A stretch of 64,000 nt of DNA, taken from assembly GCA_029834535.1 (NCBI GenBank), contig JAQMWT010000357.1:25275-89274 (forward strand), in the 5' to 3' direction. The stretch's first letter is position 1, and each line of letters starts with the position of its first letter. Of the stretch, positions 48,110-63,158 are shown piece by piece. The position numbers were made by a program, and so were the translations under genes. The notes below the pieces were generated by a model that was not told where the DNA came from, ran no database searches, and saw only the letters and a list, made by a program, of their open reading frames with translations. Origin of the DNA: Chrysophaeum taylorii. Its lineage: Eukaryota > Sar > Pelagophyceae > Pelagomonadales > Pelagomonadaceae.

Positions 48110-51100
48110 TCACACGGTGCTCCGTGGACGCGCTGTCTGGGGTGTCGTTTCAATCACGGCGTCGTAGTCTGTTGTTCCCTCGTCGTCCTCCTCCTCCTCG
48201 TCGCAATGGACTTTGATTGCCGAGGCGCGGTCGGTCGAAAGCTCGGTCATCGAGGTGACCTGCGTCGCCTGGCGCGCGATGATCGACGAGGTGCTGGACC
48301 CAAAGGTCGTCGCGAGCGCAAGTCGACGGCGTTGTTGTCGCGCGAGGCGTGACCGGTGGGCGCATCGGTACAGCAGGTCACAGAGGAGACCGAAGACGAG
48401 GACGCCGCCCCACCCGAGGACGATCGATGAGATGATTATGTTGACGCTCGCCGGAAGCCTGCCGGCGCCAAAAAAAGCAGTCGAAATCGCAAACGCGAGG
48501 ATCGGAATGAAGAGAGCCATTTCTTCCATCACGAGTTCCTGGATCTCAGCGGGGAGCCGAAGGAAGAGGGCAGCGACGCCGAGGATCGCCGTCGAGGTCC
48601 AGAGCGGTCGCCACGTGGTGTGGTCGTAAATTTCTTCGAGCTCGTCGTGCGTCGGAAGATTAATTCTCTCGTCGTCGCCGAGCCGGCGCGCGTCGAGCCG
48701 CCCGGGGCTGCCGCGGGCGGTCATCGCGAGACCGCGCAGCGAGGCGCGCACGGCGGGCAACTCGTCGAGGAGGTAGTCGAGGGCGTCCTCCTTGAGGGGC
48801 TGGGCGTACGGATAGGTCGCCGTATCAGAGACCGAGGCGAGTCTGGCGACTTTGTCGACGACGAGCGCCGGGAAGAAAACGAATCGGACGAGGAGCATAA
48901 AGGGTATGACGACGAAATAGACGAGGACGATCTCGACTGCCGCGTCGACAAAGAATGCCACCGTGAGGCGCCTGCCGACGTCGCTCGCGAAGAGAGCGAG
49001 ATAGACGACCGGCACGGCCACGGCGGCCGCGCACACCAGGGACGCGAGACAAAACTCGGGCGAGTAGGGTTCGACGGGCGGCGCGGCAAACTCGATCTCG
49101 TAGAGCTGCTGGTAAATTCGTCGCTCGGTCGCGCGGAGTTTTTGGAGGCGTCCCTTGTTCGCGATCCAGAGCGCGCGGAGCTCGTGGTCTCGCGCGGGAA
49201 TTGCCTCGAGCTCGTCGCGCCAGGTCTTGGCGACGCGGAGGTGCGTAAAGACCTCCAAGGTCACGCGTCGTTCGAAGACCTCTTGATTCTCGACGACGCT
49301 CCACCGCTGCACCAAGTCCTCCTCGAGTTTGTGGAGAATGAACGCCATTCTGCGACCGCGTTCGGTTCCGCGGAGATCCGCTTCGCGCGCGGCCGCCCGG
49401 AGCTCGTCGCGTCGGGCGAGCACGGCGGCCGCGACCTCCGGCGCCAGAGCCTCGGCCTTCTCGAGAAGAAGACCATCGGCGCGTCTGGCCTTGGCGATCC
49501 GCCGCCGGCCCACGAGATCGACTGCTTCCATTTTTTCGCTCGGCCGGACGGCGGGCCCCTCGATCTTCGCCTCCTCCTCGACGAAGTATGCGTTTTCGGC
49601 GCTCGACGGCCCCCCGCCGGTCGTCGGCGATTCCGTCTGGCGCCAAATCGTCGCGGCTGTTGTGCCCCACATCACGTTACAGAGAACGCCGACGGTCGCC
49701 CACTCGAAAGCCGTGACGCACGGCAGAAAGACGGCCGTGGCCGTCAGGACCGCGAACGCGTGGTCGACCGAATAGAGCGAATCCGACGGAGGGCCTCTGT
49801 ACTCGCACTCGCCGGCAGACTGCGACCACTTGCACATCCGACGGCCGCTCGGATTCTCGAACTTGAGGCAGCGATCGCTCGACTTGCGGTCGTCGCAGCC
49901 CGGATCGGGGAACTGGTAAGCGCACTCCATCGCGACCGTTGCCAGGAGTATCAGGATCTCGACGCCGAGCACGGCGATTCTGAGGGGCCTCGACACCGAA
50001 TGCTGCTGCGCGCTGGGACGCTGCCACAAGAAAAATAACGGATGCCTTGTCAGCGCGACCGCGACGGCGCGCTGCCACCAGCGTTTCCCGTGGCGAACGT
50101 GCGCCGCCTCGAGCACCGTCTCGAGTTGGGCTTTGGTCGCGTCGCGACGCGCCTTCTCCGCGCGATACGCGCGCTGGCGGCGCGAATCATCATCATCATC
50201 GACGGCCGCATCCTCCTTGGCTGCTGCTGCGAAGCTGCTGCTGCTGCTGAAGCTGCTGCTGCTTTGGCGAACCTCGCGGTCGTCTCGACGTTTTCCCGAG
50301 TATGCCGCGACGGCGAAGACCGCGACGTAGGCGGCGAGAAACAAGATCATGATAAAAGATCGGCGCGGATTAAAGCCGCCGACCTTGCTGAACTGGCGGA
50401 GTAGGGTCTTTCCGTAGGCTTCGACGACGGTCCGCGTCGAGTAGTCGGTCGCGGGTTGGTCGGCGTCTACTCGACAGACGCAATAGTCGGAGTCTTTGGT
50501 CGAGCGGGCGTCGTCGCGGACGCATTGGCTTTCGGTCCAGGTATTGTTCGCCTCGTGGTAGCTGACGCATCCGCGCGCGGCGACGCCGCCGCAGCCCTTG
50601 ACGATCTCCTCGTAGTCTCGGGTAGCGCACTCGTGCCTCACGACGGAACCGTCGGGGCACGTCGCCTCGACCGTTCCGAGGTAATTCCAGTCGCACGCGA
50701 GCGTGACGTTCGTTGTTGTCGTCGTCAAGGACTCGTCGACCGTCGCGTTCTCGCGGGCCGGGACCACAAAGTCGACCTCGGTGGTGGTGGTGGTGGTGGT
50801 GGTGGCCGCTAGCTCGAAGCGCAAGACCGAACCTAGAGTGTCGCCGCCGGCGTAGCGACTCGCCTCGAGCTCGACGAGAGAAACGTCCGCCTCGTCGTCG
50901 AGCCGGGGCACAACGGCTCGGGCAGAAGTCGCCGCCCCGTCGTCGTCGTCGTAGTATTCCGCCGCCACCGCGAGACGGCGTTGCTGTTTGGAGTTGGAGA
51001 GGTCTATGACGGTGGGCGCGGTGCCCGAGACGCGTCTCGTCGCGAGCCGGATGTTGGAGCTGACGACCAGAACCGCGTCTTCGTCGGGGGTTCGGGCGCG

Positions 51101-53275
51101 GAGCTGCGCCGCGGCGACCGAATCGACGAGGTCCGTCAACTGGGCGGTCGCGTTCGATTCTTGCAATTCGTCGTCGTTGTCGTCGAAGAGCGTCGAGTCG
51201 AGGAGAAGTGAGCCGATCGAGACGAGATCGTTTGCAGAGAGCTGGTCGATCGTCTCGTCGACGTCGGCCGTCGAAAAGCGCCGCGCGACGACCGTCGATT
51301 GGTCGAGGGCCTGTGCCGCAGCCCTCGACCCCAAAGTTTCCGGCTCGCTCACGGGGGCCAACATGCCCGAGGCGAACTGCGCGATCTGGTCGGCGGTGAA
51401 GTCGTAGAATTCCCAAGAGTCGACGACGAGCGAAATCATAGTCTCTCGCGTCTCGACGTCGACGCTGTTCGCTTTGGTCGCCGCGACCGCCACCTGGCTC
51501 ACGACCTCCTTGACGTAGTTGGAGAGGGCTTCCGTCGCCAGGGCGGTCGCCGTCGCTGCGAGGTCGTCGCCTCCGAACTCGCGCACGGTCGCGGTCGTTT
51601 TCGCTTCGCCCGTCGCGCCTAAACTGTCGGTCGCGACGGCCGCGAGGAACGCGGGGTCGGCCGCCCGGAGGGTCGCGCCCGCCATCCTCGTCTCGAGGGA
51701 GGCCGACCGCAGCACCTTCATCGGCTCGTCGTCGTCGTCCCGGGTCTCGAAGCGATAAACCAGCGGCGGCTCGGTCGTGGCCCAGCCCGACGTGACGAGC
51801 TCGAAGCTCGTCTGGATCGCCGTGCCGTTCCGAGGAATTACCTCGAGCAGACCCGAGGAAGGTCGGCGCGCGACGACCAAATCGACGAAGGCTGTGGCGC
51901 TGCCGCCGGAGGCACTTATCTCGAACCGGTACGAGGCGCCCTCAACGAGAAATGTCGCGGCGACAACGAGCGATTGTCCGTCGAGCGGCGAGAGCGCCGC
52001 GTCGACGAGGCTCGAGCCTCCGCTCAACTCGCCGTCGACCGACCACGTCGTGTTCGACGACGAAGCAGTCACGGCGTCCACAATCAACCGGGTCTGCGGG
52101 AGGGCAACCAACGGACTCCTCGCAACGATCGCGACGACCGAATCGTCGTCGTTATTATTGCTGGCGGCGACGACGACGATCGCGGCGGCCGCGGTCGCCG
52201 ATCGGTCGTCGGGCGTCGTCGCGACGAGCTCGACCGAGTAGTTTCCCGGGGCAACAACCTCCAAGCTCAGGGAGGCGGCCGTCGGGTCGAAGGGAGGGCA
52301 CGCCGGCGCGCAGGTCCAAAAGTACGAGAGCGGTTCGCCGTCGGGATCGTAGGACCGGTTCCCCCACACTTCGAGCGCGCTCGACGTCCTGTTGCCGCCG
52401 TCGAGGAGCGCGACGACGCGCGACGCTTCGACCTCCACGAACACCGAAGCCGTGTTTTCGAGGCCAGAGCTCCTGTCGGTCGCGGTGGCCACCAGCTCGT
52501 AGCTCCCTAAATCCAGATTTTCGACTTTATAGACGCGCGGATCCCGCGACGTCGAAGAGCGGCCAGAGGCGCGACCGCCCGCGCGCGTCAGATTGAACGA
52601 GTAGTCGACGCCGGCGCCGCCGCACGACTCGCCGCGGAACTGGACCTCGAGGGTCTCGGCTCGCGTGGTTGTCCTCGAACGCGGCCCGATCGCGGTCAGC
52701 GAGGGGATCTCCAAGGGACTGATTTCGACGGCGATCGACGCGTTGCCCGATTCTCCGAAAAAATTCTCGATCCTGACCCGGACGACCCCGGTCTCGTTTA
52801 CCGGAATTAAAAGCTCCGACGAAGGAACCCCCGTCTCCAAAGAATGCATCGTCTCGGTCCACCACTCCAAGGTCGCGCCGCGCCCCCCGAGTCCCGTCGT
52901 CTGCCGCGCGTCCACCTTTCTATTACCGCACCGCGCCGCGACGTCGGGAGCCTGCAGCACGACCGACGGCACGACCGGCGTCGAGGGCGCCGCGACCACA
53001 ACCGACGACTCGCACCCCGTCAACGTGGACCCGGGAACGATGTCGGGGGACCCACTCACGAAAGCGCGGACGCGCCGCGCGTCCACTTTATAGCACGATG
53101 ACAAAATCTCGACCACCACCTCTTCGCAATCAAAGGTGGCCCCCGCGGTGTAGGATACGAGGTCGGCGTCGAATTCTAGCAGAAGAGAGTCCCCCGCCGC
53201 CTCGAACCCGGCGCGAACCACGCACTGGCCCGCGGCGAACGGCAACAACAACAACGTCGTCATCATCATCATCAT
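48110..53275 (-). CDS. Large REJ-domain multi-pass membrane protein (polycystin-1-like)
   Basis: The 1721-residue single-exon protein starts at the ATG at 53275; the GTG two codons upstream was rejected. It has a signal peptide (MMMMMTTLLLLPFAAG). The ectodomain of ~970 residues contains a receptor-for-egg-jelly (REJ) region: YDPDGEPLSYFWTC, ISASGGSATAFVDLVV, ATDSLGATGEA. Then come a Cys-rich patch (~905-965; CDWNYLGTVEATCPDGSVVRHECATR) and ~8 membrane segments from ~990 to ~1660, with a large cytosolic loop of ~220 residues between the third and fourth. REJ plus multi-pass C-terminal regions resemble polycystin-1-type mechanosensors of protists. I do not see a clear PLAT domain or ion-channel pore. 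Confidence 0.72.
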   Translation of the reverse strand: MMMMMTTLLLLPFAAGQCVVRAGFEAAGDSLLLEFDADLVSYTAGATFDCEEVVVEILSSCYKVDARRVRAFVSGSPDIVPGSTLTGCESSVVVAAPSTPVVPSVVLQAPDVAARCGNRKVDARQTTGLGGRGATLEWWTETMHSLETGVPSSELLIPVNETGVVRVRIENFFGESGNASIAVEISPLEIPSLTAIGPRSRTTTRAETLEVQFRGESCGGAGVDYSFNLTRAGGRASGRSSTSRDPRVYKVENLDLGSYELVATATDRSSGLENTASVFVEVEASRVVALLDGGNRTSSALEVWGNRSYDPDGEPLSYFWTCAPACPPFDPTAASLSLEVVAPGNYSVELVATTPDDRSATAAAAIVVVAASNNNDDDSVVAIVARSPLVALPQTRLIVDAVTASSSNTTWSVDGELSGGSSLVDAALSPLDGQSLVVAATFLVEGASYRFEISASGGSATAFVDLVVARRPSSGLLEVIPRNGTAIQTSFELVTSGWATTEPPLVYRFETRDDDDEPMKVLRSASLETRMAGATLRAADPAFLAAVATDSLGATGEAKTTATVREFGGDDLAATATALATEALSNYVKEVVSQVAVAATKANSVDVETRETMISLVVDSWEFYDFTADQIAQFASGMLAPVSEPETLGSRAAAQALDQSTVVARRFSTADVDETIDQLSANDLVSIGSLLLDSTLFDDNDDELQESNATAQLTDLVDSVAAAQLRARTPDEDAVLVVSSNIRLATRRVSGTAPTVIDLSNSKQQRRLAVAAEYYDDDDGAATSARAVVPRLDDEADVSLVELEASRYAGGDTLGSVLRFELAATTTTTTTTEVDFVVPARENATVDESLTTTTTNVTLACDWNYLGTVEATCPDGSVVRHECATRDYEEIVKGCGGVAARGCVSYHEANNTWTESQCVRDDARSTKDSDYCVCRVDADQPATDYSTRTVVEAYGKTLLRQFSKVGGFNPRRSFIMILFLAAYVAVFAVAAYSGKRRDDREVRQSSSSFSSSSSFAAAAKEDAAVDDDDDSRRQRAYRAEKARRDATKAQLETVLEAAHVRHGKRWWQRAVAVALTRHPLFFLWQRPSAQQHSVSRPLRIAVLGVEILILLATVAMECAYQFPDPGCDDRKSSDRCLKFENPSGRRMCKWSQSAGECEYRGPPSDSLYSVDHAFAVLTATAVFLPCVTAFEWATVGVLCNVMWGTTAATIWRQTESPTTGGGPSSAENAYFVEEEAKIEGPAVRPSEKMEAVDLVGRRRIAKARRADGLLLEKAEALAPEVAAAVLARRDELRAAAREADLRGTERGRRMAFILHKLEEDLVQRWSVVENQEVFERRVTLEVFTHLRVAKTWRDELEAIPARDHELRALWIANKGRLQKLRATERRIYQQLYEIEFAAPPVEPYSPEFCLASLVCAAAVAVPVVYLALFASDVGRRLTVAFFVDAAVEIVLVYFVVIPFMLLVRFVFFPALVVDKVARLASVSDTATYPYAQPLKEDALDYLLDELPAVRASLRGLAMTARGSPGRLDARRLGDDERINLPTHDELEEIYDHTTWRPLWTSTAILGVAALFLRLPAEIQELVMEEMALFIPILAFAISTAFFGAGRLPASVNIIISSIVLGWGGVLVFGLLCDLLYRCAHRSRLARQQRRRLALATTFGSSTSSIIARQATQVTSMTELSTDRASAIKVHCDEEEEDDEGTTDYDAVIETTPQTARPRSTV

Positions 53276-54157
53276 AGGCACGATGCGCGAATTTCATACA
53301 CAGTTGTTTCTACGAACACCCAGAACCCTATTACTATTTCTTCCCACCACCAAAAACCCTCAAGGGCAGTCAAAACCCTCATTTATTGCCCGGCGCGGCA
53401 TTTGGTTCGTTCAAGAGAGGTCAAGGTTCGTCTGCTCGAAGGCGATGGCATCGCGTGACGCTGGGAGCAGCGGCTCCATCATTATCAAGTGTCCGAGTAG
53501 ACGCATAATAAGAGGCTGTGATCAACACGGTGTTAAGAAGCGTTTTGGTCATCTCCTCCTTAAGCGTTTTTAACTTCCTCCTGCGTTATGAGTAGGATTT
53601 TGGCGTCCTGGAGCTTGCAAAAGAGATGTTTCAAGCGCTCAAAGTGTGATAAGACGCACGCTCCATCATGGTCTTATTTGTCCTGGTACTGCGATCACCA
53701 GACCGAGGATATAATAAAGGGCGGACATGGCTGGTGCCAGTAATGAATTTGCTTGGCGGCCGAGAATAACTCGTGTCCCGAGGCGAGATAGGAGATGCCT
53801 TATCTTTGGCATTGCGCAACTTGCGCGCGTTTTGAAACCAGAGTTACCAGCAACTGTAGCCAAGAGAGAATACGTAGCATCAAGGATGTTCTTGGACCCT
53901 GCTTTATTATAGTGTCCAATAAAAGGACCTTATGAGATTTCGTGGAAATAAAAGGACCTTATGAGATTTCGTGGAAGTAGTACCAGAAATATAGGGAATC
54001 CATGTTACGGGTTTGTCTAAGCGGCGCTGACTTGAGTACTTTGTATCATTATAATCCTGAAGTGGAAACTCCAGGAAAGGATGTACGTCGGTGGGGCTAG
54101 TTGGTCAAGTAACTTCCTCCTCGTCGTGGTTGGTTAAAGTCCTAGTCTCATACTATC
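53276..54157. other. Intergenic region with a 29-bp tandem duplication
   Basis: The unit AATAAAAGGACCTTATGAGA... is repeated at 53918-53946 and 53947-53975. No supported gene. It contains the likely promoter of the REJ gene on its left side and the target-site side of the LTR retrotransposon at its right edge. Confidence 0.5.
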
Positions 54158-54471
54158 TGTGGCGGCAACTCCTGACCGCTAAGGCTTACCCCCCCTCTCT
54201 CGAGGCTTGATACCCTTTCAACGGGACGCCTTTCCCTATCTTCCTAGTGACATCATACCTCTCTCTTGTGAGAAGCATTCTTGCTGTATTCTTGTAGCAT
54301 TCTTGCTATCATATACCATCCCTGAGAGGCTTGGTGAGCGTGAGCAAGGTGTGTGGCGAGCATATCCGACCCCGAGTCCGTGTTTTCCTCGTTCAGTGAG
54401 GTCTAGGGCGAGTCTGTGAGTACCCCCTTTGTCACCCGGGGGTCGGGAGTTTTTTTTTCTGTGCCGCCATA
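54158..54471 (+). repeat. 5' LTR
   Basis: 314 bp. It begins TGTGGCGGCA and ends TGCCGCCATA, whose ends are nearly inverse to each other. It matches 62710-63013 with a few indels and substitutions, including an extra TTCTTGTAGCATTC-type duplication here. The end is ATA if the target duplication is 5 bp; the exact edge can shift by 2-3 bp because flank and LTR share CATA. Confidence 0.9.
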
Positions 54472-54473
54472 CG

Positions 54474-54491
54474 TGGTGGAGTACACGAGAT
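54474..54491 (+). other. Candidate tRNA primer-binding site
   Basis: TGGTGGAGTACACGAG begins 2 bp after the LTR. TGG is expected where the CCA end of a tRNA pairs. I cannot identify the matching tRNA. Confidence 0.35.
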
Positions 54492-54782
54492 CGTGCGACT
54501 ACATCGGTCGCCGACGAGCGAGTGCTGCCGTACGTATTGTATTACGTGGTCCGGATTTGTACGTGCGCCCTGATCAAGCACACGGAGTTCCAGTGGACCG
54601 GTTTGCGTTGAGAATATACGCGAACGTTGTTTGTGTTCGTGCGATCCGAGTGACGACGAACACGCGCGCGAGTTGGAAACCGCAGCGCATTCTCCCGGCA
54701 ATTGATTTTGGTATAGCTGAACGGCGGAAGCTGTTTAGCGAGTGGGATCGCTACAAACGGGCATTTTTGAATTGCCAGCGGA

Positions 54783-55484
54783 TTGGAATTCCGCGAGTGC
54801 TGTTTTTACAACGACAGACAGCGTAGTTGGATTCAACGTGCATTACTTCGAGTGATCGGATCCGGACGTGTTTCGAGATTCTTGATCGATGTTTCGATAC
54901 AGATGGATATAAACGCAGACGTGCGTGAGGAAGAATCTCCACCAGTTCTTCCCGCCGCCCCTGAGATAGGCCGCGAGGAAGGTGAATTAAGAGAGGCCGA
55001 TGCAGTCGACGTTGCTGACGTGCCCCCTGACGTGCCTCCGGATACTGCCATTTTTTCGCCGTTGAGTCCAACGACCCCGGACCGTGGCGAGCGTGTTACG
55101 ATTGAGCGCGGATCTGCAGCCCGAAGTCGACTTCGTGAAGACCTCGAGCGGAGACGTCGCGAAAATGAACGATTAGCTGAGCGTTTTGCCAGCAAGATGC
55201 GGATAAACCGTCTGGGAATGCGGATCCGCTGATCTTACGAGATCCTTTTTTTGTGGGGCAAGAAGACGTGCAAGCACTGCGGGTTCTTCTGGACCACCCA
55301 TGGTGAAGATGAACAGAGAAATCGCGTGGTTTGCAACCGCGATCCGGATCGTTACTACTGTGCGATGTGGGAGCGTATTCGTAAGCAGAAGAAGCAGCCC
55401 ATATCGCGTTCCGATTGGGCGAAGCGTGATGATGCATCTCATGCGAACGCCACGCGCGGATCGGAGCCTTCTAAAGAACTTTAA
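54783..55484 (+). pseudogene. Gag-like region of the LTR element
   Basis: Two frames in the same phase (54783-55232 and 55251-55484) are separated by one TGA. The first is rich in Asp, Glu, Pro and Arg with a possible helical C-terminal part (RSRLREDLERRRRENERL). The second has CKHCGFFWTTH and later CNRDPDRYYCAMW, a CxxC...C...C pattern that may bind zinc. An overlapping frame from 54472 contains ERRKLFSEWDRYKRAFLN. A following Ser/Arg-rich stretch (55512-55730) is probably also gag or linker. The nature as gag is inferred from position, not from a recognised capsid motif. Confidence 0.4.
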
Positions 55485-55815
55485 ACGGCCCTCACCGATC
55501 TTGGAACCACAATGGCGACCATGGTGAGCGAGGTCAGAGGCATCAAGAATACTACGTCGTTTTCTACACGACAGCGAGACGGACGATCACCTTCTAGACG
55601 ATCGTCGCGACGACATCGAAGCCAGAGCCCTGATCGAAAGGCCAATACTCCTCAAAGCAGCCCGAGTCCTCGCCGTCACCGGAGCTCTAGTTGCAATTCG
55701 CGCCGGCGCCGGTCATCGACATTACGATGAGGAGTATGACGGAGGCAGATATCAGGATAGTTCGGGACATTCGAGCGCAACTTTCGCGTTCCAATCTTTA
55801 TGCGACGCGCCGCCA

Positions 55816-57795
55816 TTGTCGGGGGTTGTCTTTTACCCGACGGCGCGCCCCGCCCGAGTCTCCGATGATGTTGCCGATGTCGCTGTGACGAGCAGCCAGC
55901 GTTTGCAACAGGAGCAAAATACCACCAACGCTCGGATCGTTCGGTGGCCTTCTACATCGTATGTGGAAGCAATGTCAGATGCTACTTGGGATTCTCCGCA
56001 CTACTGGGAAGACTCAGATTCGGAGACCGACGAACCCATGCCGCAGGTTCCAGTGTCCCCCCATTCGTCAATGTGCATGTCTTGCAGGGCAGTTCACGAT
56101 GATGACGTTAGACCTTTTGAGTTGACGTCGGGGACGACGTCTTCTTTTCCTACGGGGCCCCCCGAGCCCGTTTTAGCCGATACCGTTTTGGTCGCAGCAG
56201 AGCAGACCACAGCAACGCCGATGGAGGAGAAGTTGACGGGAATGTCCGATTTGATGGACGAGAAACGACGATTGCCAGAAGAGATAAAGGAGGGAGTATA
56301 TGTGCCTCCGATTGAGAAGTGTCAGAATATGTTGTCAGCGAAACTGGGGAATGAGGAAGCAGCCGAAGCGGCGAGCGCCAATATAGATTCAGCGGCGAGA
56401 TGCAGAACGCCAGATATAGCAGCGGTGACGATGCAGATGCCGGGCGATGCGAAACCGGGGATACGATGTCATTACACTGTGCTGTCGCCGAGCGATGGGG
56501 ATAAGATTGAGCAAAACCCCATCACCATCGGTTGCCTGGACCCTGGTACACTTACTTCTATAGTTGGTCCTATTTATAGACGACGAGACTTGCCGAAGTT
56601 TGCAGCGACTTTAGGCGTGGATGGAATGGCTGATGTCTCCTATATTTGTCGTGGGATGGTTGAAAAACTGGAAAAGGATAGCATCATCCTTGACCGGGGC
56701 GATCTTCCAGTCGAGCGCACCCTGTGCGGGTCAGGATTGAACAAGACGACTATCCACAAATGGGTCGCATTGCGGATTGCGCTTGCGGACGACGTGGCCG
56801 TTCCAGTTGTTGCTATTGTGGCCGATACTAATCATCTATTTTTGCTGGGAGCGCGCGATATTCGGGTGTTGGGAGCCATAGTGGACTACCCGCGAAATCG
56901 CATTGCGTTTCTACGCACACAAGTCGCTTACGGGCGCAAGAAGTTAAAGGTGCAGGATCGACGAGTAGATTCTCCGATTTTGACGTTCAGAACAACTTAT
57001 GACGAGAGCAATCCCGTGGTAGTTCAGGTTTATGGGCAACAGCACCATGCGATGCAACAAAGCCTGAACACAGTTGAGAACCGAGTCTACGCTCGCTTGT
57101 GCAAGATTGAAGACCTCCAGCGTCCACCGCCGAAACGAGCGGGAGCTTCGACGACTTGGGGAGTCCCTCCAGTTACGCCTTCTCAAAGTTCGAACAGCGA
57201 TGCCTATGAAGTGATAGCCTATGCTGCGCCCACGATGAAGGTCGAGCCTGGGCGCACCTACTGCGTGCCAGTCGCTCTTTCAGGGCCCATGGAAACTGAG
57301 CAAGTTTTCGTTGCTACGTCTTCTGGGTACGAGCAACTCGGGGTAGTCGATGGGACGTGTTCTTCTCCTGAGGATCATGATAAGTTCGCAGCTCGAGTGG
57401 CGATATCCTCTACCCAGGATGTACCGACCGTGATTACTCAAGGTGAAGTCCTTGCTTTGGGCGATATTGTTCGTTTTGATGACGAGCTGAATGCTGAGAC
57501 GGTCGACGATTTAACGAAGGATGGTGAAGCCGAATCTAACAAAGCTAACCTCTCATTCACTGTTTCGGTCGCAAGCCATCTGACTCAAGGCGATGCGGCT
57601 CCCGAACCGATGCTTTTGAGCTCGGTGCAGAAGGCGTCTCCTTCTACCGATAAGAAGAAGAATTCTCGTCAAGAATCGCTCGGTAACGACGATTTCGACC
57701 GACGAACTGACGAGGAGGAAAAGAAATGCCGAGAAGTTACAGAAGGCGTGATTCGCCGAAGGTTTGAAAAGGTCCACTGGGTGCCGATCACGTAT
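55816..57795 (+). pseudogene. Pol N-terminal region with aspartic-protease-like motif
   Basis: The frame stays open to the TGA at 57865. The first ~230 residues are Asp/Glu/Pro-rich and disordered. Near 56535 the motif GCLDPGTLTSIVG resembles a retropepsin D-T/S-G-A active site (here DPG), followed by a hydrophobic pattern with VAIVADTNHLFLLGARDIRVLGAIVDYPR, like the conserved second half of retroviral-type proteases. The middle ~300 codons are otherwise unrecognised. Confidence 0.5.
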
Positions 57796-58650
57796 CGCAA
57801 GGTTGTGATGCTCTTTAGCGGCGCCGGAGGAAGTACTTTAGGACTGCAACGAGCGAACGAGTTGTGAGGGACGTCGTTTCGAGTCGCCCTTGCTCTTGAC
57901 TCTTCAACAGCTGCCAACAAGCTTCATCAGAAGAATTTTCCGATGATACCTGTGGTTCAGCATACGCTCTGCGGGCGATATGACTCGACCCTCCGGTTTA
58001 TCAAGGCTTATTTGCCTGAAGCGGAATGGTCATCGTCGATGTGTATAGCGTCTCCACCCTGCGTTCATTCAGCACTCTGCAACTTGACTTCCAGAGATGT
58101 TGGCAAGGGTGTTACGGCCACTAACTGGACGATGAAGCTGTGCAAAATGGCTGGCTTCATGATGTGGCTGATTGAACAGGAGGCGTCCATTATTTCGTAT
58201 ATAGCGCGCTTACACCCTTACGTGTACGTCGTCAATTTTCATGATATCACGCCCACTCTGATGAGCTCTCGCGTGCGATTGTTGGTTTCCAGTCACCCAC
58301 TGCACTTTCAAGAGGCTCCGAAGACATGTGGGAACATGCAACAAAAATTTGCTGCAGCTTTAGGTTATGCTCATGAACGCCACATGCTTCAGCTGAATAA
58401 TCTTGGCTCGTCCCGAGAAGCAACAGATACGGCCTACACCGTTACGCGAGTTCCCCTTCGTTTGGGACCGCATCGCTCGGACACTCAGCCTTTGACTCTC
58501 GAGATGACCGCCGAGTTGCTCACGATGCCGGTGGATCATGATTGGGCTAGCTTGTCTAAGACAGATTCGTTCAAACATTTAGCGTCTGTCGTCCCTCCAG
58601 ACACTCTTGCGATTTTAGCAGTCGATCTGCACAACTCCGTGACCAGAGGT
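57796..58650 (+). pseudogene. C5 cytosine DNA methyltransferase domain inside the retrotransposon
   Basis: Motif I reads VVMLFSGAGGSTLGLQ (~57801-57848). Motif II reads VALALDSSTAANKLHQKNFP (~57883-57942). Motif IV contains SPPC, with the catalytic Cys (~58051-58062). The expected motif VI (ENV) is VVNF here, so its Glu is missing. Motif VIII is SSRVRLLVSS (~58267-58296). Motif IX reads PLTLEMTAELLTMPVDHDW and motif X SVVPPDTLAILA (~58487-58623). Order and spacing match DCM/DNMT enzymes. A TGA at 57865-57867 interrupts the frame between motifs I and II, but the reading frame continues unchanged after it. The domain lies between the protease region and the reverse transcriptase. A host chromatin role is not implied. 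Confidence 0.85.
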
Positions 58651-59279
58651 TTCCGCCAAAGTGGCGAAGTCCTGCCGACCGCGTTGAGCCCAACAGATCG
58701 ATCCTTTGAGCAGTATTTGCGAATCTCTGACACCACCTTTCGTCACGTACAGATTCCGCTGTTAAATACGCGTACTCGTGTCGTTAAGTGGGTGTCAAAA
58801 GATGATCTCCAGGATCCCACTAAATGGGAACCGCCAGAAGTTCCTATGCTTCCGCTTCCAACAGATGCGCCGAGGACGGCTCATGCTTTTTCTGCTGCCC
58901 CCCCCCCCGATAATCAAAAGTGGACGTTCCGCCGGATCCTGAACCTGAACAGGAGCCGAAAGTAAGGAGCGAGCCGAATGTGCGCGTCAAAGGTGAAAAG
59001 ATCAATAAGAGCCACCCTGAGGTGAGGTCCAAATACGAAGAAAAGTTCGATGTGCCATGGAAGGATGCGCCGCGCGATGCGGATGGTGTACCGTTACCGC
59101 AGACTCCCGAGCACGTCAAGGACAATGATGCGATGAAAGTCGTAATTCCGACGAAGGAAGAAGTTGAAAAGGTTGTTCGAGATCTGGGAATTCCCGACAA
59201 CCCGCATCTGGATGATGATGCGAAGATGATGTTGAGCCACTGCGTGCAATACGCGTGGGCTTTCTTTGATCCGATTATG

Positions 59280-60174
59280 AGGCCCGTGGACTCGCCACCG
59301 GTTTCTCTACGATTTAAAGACGCAAACCCACGACCGATCAAGATGACGCCTTATAGGTTGACGCCAGCAAAGCTCGAGTGTCTCAGAAAACAGATCACTG
59401 AGTGGTGTCATTATATTATGGAGTCATCCGACCGGCGAACTCCCCGTGGGGATTCCCTATACTGATGCTGCCTAAGAAGGGAGCAGAGGCCGGAACGTCG
59501 AATGCTTTCGTGCTGCAGTTGACTTGCGTCAGCTCAATGATCAGCTGGTCAATGACAGTTGGCCGAATATTCGTCAAGATGATGATTTGGCTTTTCTTGC
59601 CATGCGCCGTTGGCGGACGTGCATTGATATTCGATGGGGTTATCATAACCTACGTTTGGACGCCGCTGCTCAGGACGCTGTTACGATGGTTAGTCCACTT
59701 GGAGCCCATAGTTTCTTGCGCTTGCCTCTAGGAGTAAAAACAGCATGAGCTCTCTTTTGTAAGCAGATGGCTAGCGATTTGTCCACATGGATGTATAAGG
59801 ACTTGGTCGCGTTTGTCGACGATATTATGATGGGATCGGATGAACTCCATCGACATTTACAAGTTTTGATTGAAGTGTTGTGCCATTTAGCACAGCAAGG
59901 ATATAGTGGACAAACTTCGAAATTCCACCTCCTCAAGGATGAAATCGAGTTTTTGGGACATATTTCGACTCCGGAGGGCTTGAAGCCGAATCCCAAGACG
60001 TTAGAAGCGTTGCAGCAGATGCCGATTCCCGGTACGTTGCCCAATACGTCCCCGAAGACCCAGATACGATCTTTCATTGGCATGAGCAACTATTGCTGCC
60101 GACATGCGAAGAATTATTCGAAGATTGTGGAGCCGCTTAGGCGATTGTGTCTTGAAGGCGTTAAGTTTGAGTGA
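59280..60174 (+). pseudogene. Reverse transcriptase, frameshifted
   Basis: RT motifs are present in order but in changing frames. RFKDANPRPIKMTPYRLTP is in one frame; VIRPANSPWGFPILMLPKKG follows in another. Then come AAVDLRQLNDQLVNDSWP and WRTCIDIRWGYHNLRLD with LRLPLGVKTA, and after a TGA (59746-59748) AFVDDIMMGSDELHRHLQ, which contains the catalytic FVDD box. The last part includes IEFLGHISTPEGLKPNPK and SFIGMSNYCCRHAKNYSKI, the thumb region. At least two frameshifts (near 59415 and 59500) and a TGA at 59746 break it; another TGA at 60172 separates it from RNase H. Ty3/gypsy-type. Confidence 0.88.
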
Positions 60175-60720
60175 ACGCCTGAGTGCCAAAAGGCATGGGA
60201 CACGATCATCAAAGCTTTGGTGGACTCTCGCGGAGTTTATCATCCTGATTGCGACCTTCTTTTTCAGATCCGCTCGGATGCTTCCAAGGATGGTCTGGGT
60301 GCGTATCTTTTTCAGCTCGTGGAAGTCAAGGACGAAACCGGCAAGGTGACACGAGAGGAACGAGTAATTGAGTATTGGAGCCGAGCTGTGCCGAAAGAGA
60401 TGCGGAACTATGAGCCTCGCCGGCTAGAGCTACTGGCAGTTATTCTTTCTCTTGAGCATTTCCGCTCTTATATCGAAGGTCGCAAGACGATCCTTGAAAC
60501 CGATCATCGCAACTTGACGTTTTTACGAAAGGCGAAGCACTCGTCTGGGCAGTTGGCTCGATGGGCGATGCGGCTCGCCAATTTTGATCCTGAATTGGGT
60601 TACAATCCTGAGAAGTTGCCGGGAATGAGTATCCCTGACTGTCTCTCTCGCAATCCTATGGATCATGTCATTGAGACGGACGAGTTTGGTGAACCCTTGA
60701 ACCACGCGTATCTAGTGTGC
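60175..60720 (+). pseudogene. RNase H domain of the LTR element
   Basis: The frame is the same as the RT C-terminal piece. IRSDASKDGLGAYLFQ (catalytic Asp), YWSRAVPKEMRNYEPRRLELLAVILSLEHFRSYIEG (Glu) and ILETDHRNLTFL (Asp) match the RNase H of gypsy elements. The segment ends IPDCLSRNP, typical for the linker to integrase. After this the frame changes twice before integrase (~60770 and ~61110). Confidence 0.88.
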
Positions 60721-61099
60721 CAAGAACTCCCTCGCCCTGTCAGTGATGAAGGAGTACATTTACCTGGGTGCCATGTCATTCGTCGTTTGTTACGACTGAG
60801 TTGCCTGTGGAGAAAGAGGAAGAAGACCTCGATGATCCGATGCAATTGGTCACGTCTCATGCTACGAAACAACGTCAGAAGCAACGTCTGCAGACCCAGC
60901 CTAGTATTTTCCGTGATGCCGATGATTACCAAGAGTACATCGACAAGATTCCGGATAATTTGACTTTGGAAGAGATAGCCAAAGAGCAGATCACTGACGC
61001 TACTTGCGAGGACATTCGTTATCGCATGGCTCAGGGCCATTCTCTTCGTCGGTACGGAGCCAATTATCGCTATCAAGTGGTGAAAGGGGTTCTCTCCGT

Positions 61100-62709
61100 G
61101 CCGCACCCGACTTGCACCCGATGATAGTCGCACCCCGAACTTTACGGACGCGCATCATCCGATTGTACCATGACACACCTCTCAATGGTGGTCATATGGG
61201 TCGTCAAAGTACAGTGCAGTCGATACTTGAGCGTTTTTGGTGGCCCCACACGTCTAATGAGGTGGGTGCTTACATTGCTGGTTGCATAGTGTGCAAGAAA
61301 GCGCGCACGCCTGAACCAAAGAGAGCAGGTCTGCTTCAGCAACCGGTGTATGATGGTGATTGCGTCGTCCTTTGTATGGACTTGTTTGGACCTTTGCCCA
61401 GTGCTGGTCCAGAGACATATCTGATCATATTTTTTGATCCATGTTCTCATTTCTTGATTCTTGACGTACTACACCATAAGACTGCTGAGTCAATCCTCGA
61501 GTCTTTTGTCGCGAATATATTACTCAAAGGTTATCTACCTCAGAGGATTCGTACCGACAATGGGAAAGAGTTCGTCAACAAGTTGATGGAAGAGTTTTGT
61601 CATCTTTTCAATGTTCGGTATAGTACCACGATTCCGTATCATGCTCAGGCTAATCCTGCGGAAAGGGTCAACCGCTTTATCAAGGCTTTCCTCCGTGCGT
61701 GCCTTCAAAACCGCAAGATCACGGAATGGCCCGAATTCGCGGAGTACATTGCTCTCTGTTACAATCGTAAATTTATTCCGGGGACTCAGATCTCACCTTT
61801 CATGCTTCGTCTTAACCGGCAGCCTTTATTGCCAACCGATTACACGATCATGGATCTTGATGTCCGCCGCCTGCCGAAAACTCGCTCCGATGTTGTGGCA
61901 GAGACTCGCGAGAGGCTGAAGTTCTATACCGCTACGGTGAACGAAGCTCGTGAGAAGGCTCTTCGTAAACAACGTCTCGCCTATAATGCGGACCATGTTG
62001 ATGTGGCGTATGAAGAAGGCTCACATGTTCTGCTCTACATCCCTTTTCTTCAGAACAAGCTTCGACCGGAATGGCGCGGTCCATTCGTTATTTTGGAACG
62101 CCTGTCCCCGGTCACTTACAGGGTTGAGTCTCTTGATTCTCCTCCTGAACGCCGTTGTGTTCATGTTAGCCAGATCACCCCTGTGATGGTTTCTCCAGTG
62201 GTCGATCGAGCTGTGCCCAAGCCCAAGGAGACCTTTCGGGATGATTACAAGCATGGTAAGTTCGTTATCTTTCGGATTCCGGATAACAAACGGTCCGATT
62301 GGCGAAAGAAGATTTACGTCGCTGAAGTTTATGAACCCTATGATTTTGTGAATGACCGAGTCGCTCTGCATTTCTATGCTGATCTTGGTCCCCATGACAA
62401 GGTTTCTTATTACAAGCCTACTTCACATGTCTCTACTCGCAAGCTTAAGCCGGAATACAAGGACGTGGACGGTCGCAGTTTCACCGACAAGACCAAGGTC
62501 AACAACAGTACCACTCCTTGTGTCACCGACTTCGTCCCGCATGAGATCGATGTGTTGATTCTAAGTTCACTTTGCGTGGTGGACGCGTTCCTGAACCTGT
62601 CGTTGAACGTGTCTACAAGAAGATTCGTTCCCGAGACGCTCATTCAGCCAAGGCTCGTGCTTCTCGCCGGACTTGCCGAGGGCAGCTCGTGTTCTCACCA
62701 GGGGAGTCC
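61100..62709 (+). pseudogene. Integrase of the LTR element
   Basis: The zinc-binding HHCC region includes HDTPLNGGHMG (the His pair) and IAGCIVCKKAR (CxxC). The catalytic core has CMDLFGPLPSAGPETY (first Asp), RIRTDNGKEFVN (second Asp) and NPAERVNRF (Glu), a DDE triad with 34 residues between the last two. After the core, EGSHVLLYIPFLQNKLRPEWRGPFVILER is the usual gypsy C-terminal GPY/F region. A further ~150 residues (VAEVYEPYDFVNDRVALHFYADLG...) occupy the place where a chromodomain sits in some gypsy elements, but I cannot call it a chromodomain. This part has the longest intact frame of the element. Confidence 0.93.
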
Positions 62710-63013
62710 TGTGGCGGCAACTCCTGACCGCTAAGGCTTACCCTCCCTTTCTCGAGGCTTGATACCCGTTCAACGGGACGCCTTTCCCTACCTTCCTAGT
62801 GACATCATACATCTCTCTTGTGAGAAGCATTCTTGCTATCATATACCACCTCTCCATCTTGTTGAGAGGCTTGGTGAGCGTGAGCAAGGTGTGTGGCGAG
62901 CATATCCGACCCCGAGTCCGTGTTTTCCTCGTTCAGTGAGGTCTAGGACGAGTCGGCGAGTACCCCCTTTGTCACCCGGGGGTCGGGAGTTTTTTTTTTC
63001 TGTGCCGGCCATA
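62710..63013 (+). repeat. 3' LTR
   Basis: 304 bp. It starts TGTGGCGGCA and ends GTGCCGGCCATA. It is highly similar to the 5' copy. Just upstream is a short purine run (AGGGGAG) that may be a remnant polypurine tract. Confidence 0.9.
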
Positions 63014-63158
63014 CTATCCTCTCGCGCACTCAAATAAAGCTTGAGTGTACCTATCGTGATCGGCAAGACTGCGATAATAGCGATAAAGTTCCTCAATGTG
63101 TTTTCTGAGTAATAACGGTGTCAGAAAACTGAATATTGGCTTCATCTACATTGAGACG

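Follow-up and report, generated by a model that had tools for sequence, protein, structure and literature searches.

Transposons are the usual targets of DNA methylation and not its makers. DNA methyltransferases (DNMTs) that travel inside retrotransposons are described in the accessible parts of PMC5890265, where they are reported from DIRS and LINE elements of dinoflagellates and from a gypsy element of a charophyte; the DNMT of the DIRS retrotransposon methylates CG de novo, and the LINE-borne DNMT gave no DNA methylation in yeast. This precedent, to which a preliminary description of the locus treated here had pointed, is real. In the accessible excerpt of PMC12344493, Copia and DIRS elements are said to carry DNMT3, with reference to PMC5890265; copia elements of streptophytes or dinoflagellates may thus already be known to include one with a DNMT.

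The wider literature, as far as its text is open, covers accessory domains of retrotransposons (PMC6338049), an N4/N6-type methyltransferase in an Ectocarpus DNA transposon (PMC12477816) and TET dioxygenases in fungal DNA transposons (PMC12730594). In the accessible part of PMC9998398, on the DNMTs of microeukaryotes, no ochrophyte retrotransposon DNMT was found, and searches of the available open literature listed no C5-DNMT from an LTR element of any red-plastid alga.

Structure of the element

The window, i.e. the whole stretch of DNA that was analysed, covers 64 kb of a genome that totals 70.8 Mb in 697 contigs. Its positions 54158-63013 are a decayed Ty3/gypsy LTR retrotransposon, with the following features:

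54153..54157, no strand: target site duplication, left copy, CTATC, 5 bp, identical to 63014-63018
54158..54471, + strand: 5' LTR, 314 bp, TG...TA, from alignment with the 3' LTR
55717..57792, + strand: gag-like and protease-like region, from tblastn of polyprotein P0002, assigned by eye and position
57793..58650, + strand: C5-cytosine methyltransferase domain with motifs I-IV and VIII-X and a probable motif VI, from Pfam and profile comparisons
58174..58176, + strand: probable motif VI Glu codon, in WLIEQE, from spacing and hhalign
59755..59964, + strand: reverse transcriptase (RT), the part matched by Pfam RVT_1, E 3.8e-7
60256..60585, + strand: RNase H (RT_RNaseH), Pfam E 7.8e-27
61133..61309, + strand: integrase zinc-binding domain (H2C2), Pfam E 8.3e-16
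61367..61642, + strand: integrase core (rve), Pfam E 1e-11
62710..63013, + strand: 3' LTR, 304 bp, from alignment with the 5' LTR
63014..63018, no strand: target site duplication, right copy, CTATC, identical to 54153..54157

The two LTRs differ by 15 mismatches over 301 aligned positions, plus indels, and RVT_1, RNase H, H2C2 and rve follow one another on the + strand in gypsy order. RT-homologous sequence starts near 59420 and changes frame within; the decay of this copy shows in several such frame changes in pol and in one TGA inside the DNMT domain, at 57865, where the preliminary description had seen a TGA between motifs I and II. The protease is assigned by motif only: by eye, positions ~56539-56547 read DPG in the window copy and DTG in copy L031 (the source of P0002), and neither copy gave a Pfam protease match; the gag-like and protease-like region of the window copy matched no Pfam family at all. 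No tRNA genes for a primer match were found within the 64-kb window.

Two further observations concern the surroundings of these domains. The last ~170 residues of P0002, behind the integrase core, are well kept. Apart from a weak Integrase_p58_C they match no Pfam family, and they may form a module that binds chromatin or a target. Elsewhere in the window, on the - strand at 48110-53293, lies a 1727-aa open frame with a REJ domain (E 7.9e-26), by its look a large membrane protein.

The methyltransferase domain

The domain sits between the protease-like and RT regions of the element. Its motifs stand where the preliminary description had put them: motif I (LFSGAGG) at 57811-57831, motif II (ALALDSS) at 57886-57906, motif IV (ASPPCV, with PPC) at 58048-58065, with the catalytic Cys codon at 58060, a motif VIII-like SSRVRLL at 58264-58284, motif IX at 58492-58530 and motif X at 58582-58602. 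A search with the Pfam DNA_methylase profile (PF00145; curated cut-off 22 bits), which the same description had proposed, returned 23 bits for the window copy (E 6.2e-5, the TGA read as X) and 26.3 bits (E 6.3e-6) for P0003, the domain from a copy free of stops, and the family is listed for 17 of 17 aligned gypsy copies in a scan extending to E 10, the best at 3.2e-6.

Could this be a chance resemblance, or an assembly artefact, with no DNMT behind it? The Pfam score is barely above its cut-off and the match is restricted to motifs I-III; moreover, with the whole polyprotein of 3026 residues as query DNA_methylase reaches 18.9 bits, below the cut-off. More specific comparisons were made with a reference profile of nine C5-MTases (seven from phages, out of 12 loci, plus the host's DNMT2 and DNMT5-type enzymes), with 60 column shuffles as the control. 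Residues 26-79 hold the best local stretch, at 69.3 against a shuffle maximum of 19.9 (n=60). The later motifs are each supported separately: residues 86-308 alone find motifs IX-X (28.3; best of 60 shuffles 23.8; hhalign probability 11%), and residues 81-200 alone find the PPC motif over eight columns (22.9, the highest of 60 shuffles being 16.5; probability 4.5%), so that both beat 60 of 60 shuffles. In global alignment, residues 81-200 alone did not rise above the shuffles, 28 of 60 of which reached the same score; for the whole domain, global hhalign gives E 5.1e-12 over 268 columns, a figure without shuffle control.

Two protein searches of the genome gave at least 112 and at least 128 DNMT matches, jointly at least 168 distinct places on many contigs. 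The preliminary description had named a missing profile match and an assembly error as the ways in which its claim could fail; instead, the Pfam score lies above the cut-off and the domain recurs at these many places. Chance or artefact is accordingly a very improbable account of the domain.

Motif VI is the one point on which the preliminary description was probably mistaken. It had reported the motif to lack its Glu, having placed it at VVNFHDI, 57-58 residues past the Cys. The Glu of WLIEQE lies 38 residues past the PPC Cys, compared with 37-41 in the references (eight of nine measurable by pattern), and global whole-domain hhalign sets it on the Glu of ENV, gap-free from motif IV. A motif VI Glu is likely present, in the form IEQE and not ENV; it is likely and not proved because a MAFFT alignment of this stretch disagrees with hhalign, and because this Glu stands 32 residues from the RxR of motif VIII, closer than in the references (37-56).

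Such departures would also suit an MTase-like fold that no longer methylates and is retained in Pol for structure or for the binding of nucleic acid: the candidate motif VI reads IEQE, the stretch from motif VI to VIII is short and the match is weaker past motif III. Conservation argues against it. Among 44 gypsy loci, 43 hold a full or nearly full DNMT domain (L019 was left out), and conservation was counted, like the C-to-T differences below, over the 37 of these that are gapless (six with a stop). The catalytic Cys and the R-x-R are kept in 37 of 37, the F and G residues of the SAM site in 36-37 of 37 and the WLIEQE Glu in 36 of 37. The force of this argument is only moderate, because the same residues belong to the invariant positions, which make up 47% of all positions in the family. 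A non-catalytic role is considered unlikely. The AlphaFold model of the domain was unusable (mean pLDDT 40.3).

Copies, recent movement and selection

The preliminary description had read the locus as a DNMT built into a Ty3/gypsy element, and the genome agrees with the LTRs, the 5-bp duplication and the domain order of the window: a DNMT match lies 1.3-2.1 kb upstream of the RT in 62 of 101 scored RT copies. The remaining 39 have no DNMT among the at least 168 places listed; two of them were inspected, and both are shortened copies with a DNMT remnant. An intact paralogous copy, such as the preliminary description had suggested looking for, exists: in copy L031 one open frame of >3000 residues runs from gag to integrase, and the LTRs are identical over 336 of 336 bases, from which it follows that the family moved recently.

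Selection was measured on pairs of copies. For comparison between domains, pairs of one subfamily with dS >0.03 were used and stop codons were skipped; the median dN/dS is 0.21 for the DNMT (77 pairs), as against 0.25 for the protease region (65 pairs), 0.18 for RT (44 pairs), 0.26 for RNase H (49 pairs) and 0.12 for integrase (36 pairs). Over the 31 of 43 loci that are both stop-free and gapless, DNMT dN/dS is 0.195 in one of the two subfamilies (44 pairs) and 0.214 in the other (202 pairs), with individual pairs as high as 0.78. A further alignment, A1, comprises 17 copies picked as stop-free. Against one copy of the window subfamily (L040), in a comparison in which ~70% of synonymous sites differ, dN is 0.112 for the DNMT, 0.033 for RT and 0.229 for the protease region. 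The gypsy DNMT is thus under purifying selection about as strict as that on the other pol enzymes, and it changes faster than RT; dN/dS does not distinguish a requirement for catalysis from some other requirement. The domain is very probably genuine and selected.

A second family of Ty1/copia type

A scan of the genome with PF00145 gave 57 matches, which comprise two host loci (L047 and L048, see below) and 55 further places; three of these were inspected, and all three show the same DNMT type. It belongs to a different class of element:

G000:C96:62500-71500, outside the window: copia-like element (L049 and L052), a frame of 1952 residues

The frame reads, in order, a protease-like DGGAS, the DNMT, a weak rve and RVT_2. 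The DNMT matches PF00145 at E 5.2e-8, with TLPCQ as motif IV and VENV as motif VI; RVT_2, the copia RT, stands downstream of the integrase at E 7.7e-39, and the rve upstream of it is weak (18.2 bits; cut-off 32.6). No direct repeats or LTRs were found in this 9-kb stretch. A protein search of the genome with the copia DNMT returned 130 matches, seven of them apparent second pieces, i.e. ~123 places; PF00145 is matched by 15 of 18 aligned copies in a scan extending to E 1 (best 5.1e-12). The median dN/dS is 0.135 (89 pairs) over 14 of the 18 aligned copies, L056-L059 being left out for frame breaks; L054, which has a stop, stood outside the alignment. The AlphaFold model was unusable here as well (mean pLDDT 35.1).

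When the gypsy and copia DNMTs were compared by hhalign, no similarity was found (probability 0.5%), and this negative comparison is the basis for regarding the two captures as independent. There is roughly an even chance that the two classes independently took highly divergent, non-DNMT3 DNMTs into the same post-protease slot within one red-plastid algal genome. If so, LTR elements with a cDNA intermediate would have turned to DNMT uptake repeatedly and convergently, and the phenomenon would be more than an oddity of two lineages. A spacing shared by the two domains, seen by eye, is not claimed.

Relatives of the transposon methyltransferases

Residues 1390-1700 of the gypsy polyprotein were searched against 5.8 billion proteins, those of 0.55-1.75 times its length being eligible, and none of 836 candidates reached E 0.001. 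The gypsy and copia domain alignments, each searched against 5.8 billion proteins, gave 4796 and 7141 candidates, none at E 0.01; such protein searches need shared short words, and distant kin can be missed. Viral contigs held no relative of the transposon DNMTs, phages nothing significant (best E 0.2), and a bacterial scan with the host DNMT2 as query found nothing.

Among solved structures, the nearest to the gypsy DNMT are DNMT2 chains, all non-significant (E 0.066, 0.074, 0.24 and 0.26) and matched over motifs I-III only, and no DNMT3 was among the matches. The CFT motif of DNMT2 is absent from P0003. An identification as DNMT2 was rejected on these values and on the missing CFT, and the gypsy DNMT, by its sequence features, is not assignable to a known DNMT class. 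Its separate capture is plausible and not proved, because the domain is too divergent for a tree, with too few columns that can be aligned, and no relative was found.

The same structures bear on the possibility that the domain is an RNA methyltransferase, working in the manner of DNMT2 on the primer tRNA or on the packaged genomic RNA. The DNMT2 chains would point that way, and PMC5890265, in its accessible text, raises RNA methylation for the LINE-borne DNMT that was inactive on yeast DNA; given that the likeness is confined to motifs I-III and that CFT is missing, an RNA target appears rather improbable.

Host genes and DNA composition

The two host loci are a DNMT2-like gene and a gene of DNMT5 type, judging by their sequences and under names given in this analysis. 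The first (L047, G000:C634:8500-10100) is a single-exon gene for 360 residues. It adjoins, on the opposite strand, a gene for a light-harvesting protein, whose best match is a chain named VCPI-6 (E 9e-13) and whose leader carries an ARAF motif; this motif is typical of red-derived complex plastids. By this one gene the host is a red-plastid alga, perhaps an ochrophyte, and the stramenopile-type alga of the preliminary description has the same single gene in its favour; a short 18S rRNA pattern gave no hit. The second (L048, G000:C621:14500-21500) has a DNMT domain followed by a SNF2 domain in one long frame.

Host DNA at positions 1-54000 of the window has 62% GC and a CpG observed/expected ratio of 1.39, as against 52% and 1.15 for the element at 54158-63013. 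The ratio ranges from 1.15 to 1.34 in gypsy copies and is 1.03 in copia and 0.68 and 0.82 in the two LTRs of the window; composition alone may explain the lower values of the elements. C-to-T differences per 1000 were 33.5 at CG, 44.4 at CHG and 56.9 at CHH sites in one gypsy subfamily, and 45.5, 51.0 and 39.3 in the other, i.e. no CG excess among gypsy copies, in a weak test confined to the DNMT coding segment.

These figures are relevant to an action of the DNMT on the chromatin of the host or of further copies, where it would silence or mark the sites of insertion and so limit copy number and harm. The possibility is discussed in the accessible text of PMC5890265, and the high copy number would fit it. 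Yet this genome of 70.8 Mb already holds many copies, the copy with identical LTRs shows recent movement, and the DNMT coding segment bears no footprint of CG decay; this account appears unlikely.

Proposed function

The favoured, though unproven, reading is that the gypsy DNMT acts on the element's own cDNA. It is favoured because of the post-protease slot in Pol in two element classes, the selection on the domain and the published retrotransposon DNMT that methylates CG, and it is weakened by the lack of a CG excess of C-to-T differences among copies; its probability is put a little short of even. In such a scheme, a C5-cytosine methyltransferase would have been acquired between the protease and reverse transcriptase of a Ty3/gypsy element. 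The element protease would release it together with the other Pol enzymes, and the released enzyme would be packaged with the element RNA and would methylate the new double-stranded cDNA before or at integration. An incoming copy would thereby be methylated and resemble self DNA. With its DNMT5-type gene the host could maintain this mark, which would keep down the sensing or degradation of the DNA or the damage that the host suffers. Self-marking, as the preliminary description had suggested it, is likewise an inference. Taken as a whole, the statement that the gypsy element took up a DNMT, keeps it selected in Pol and methylates its own cDNA may be right or wrong with about equal probability.

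Both the gypsy and the copia elements hold a DNMT beside the protease, and both pass through double-stranded cDNA. Two classes of element that each keep a DNMT under selection and at high copy number would allow the benefit to a retrotransposon to be tested by comparison. For surveys of algal genomes, it also follows that mobile elements may dominate DNMT counts.

Comparison with known systems

The closest described system, according to the accessible parts of PMC5890265, is KnitGypsy-Dnmt3 of Klebsormidium nitens. Like the present gypsy element, it carries its DNMT inside the gypsy Pol polyprotein, both have copies of high identity, and purifying selection acts on both (Ka/Ks <0.2 in KnitGypsy-Dnmt3; median 0.21 here). 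The dinoflagellate elements SymbioDIRS-Dnmt3 and SymbioLINE-Dnmt (PMC5890265, same parts) are likewise many-copy retrotransposons with a DNMT, which in SymbioDIRS-Dnmt3, as here, stands in Pol alongside RT; they belong to the tyrosine recombinase and non-LTR classes, respectively, whereas the elements described here are distinguished by LTRs and rve (gypsy) or by RVT_2 (copia). The Dam-type methyltransferases of DIRS elements, in the available text of PMC5890265 and PMC6338049, also lie within a retrotransposon polyprotein, but they are of the adenine class, unrelated to C5-cytosine enzymes, and occur in another class of element. The main differences from KnitGypsy-Dnmt3 are that its domain, as characterized in the text accessible, is a recognisable DNMT3, whereas no relative was found for the present gypsy DNMT, that the present host is, by one gene, a red-plastid alga, and that its genome additionally has a DNMT-bearing copia family. 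New here are a further lineage, the presence of DNMTs in two LTR superfamilies of a single genome, and DNMTs for which no relative was found.
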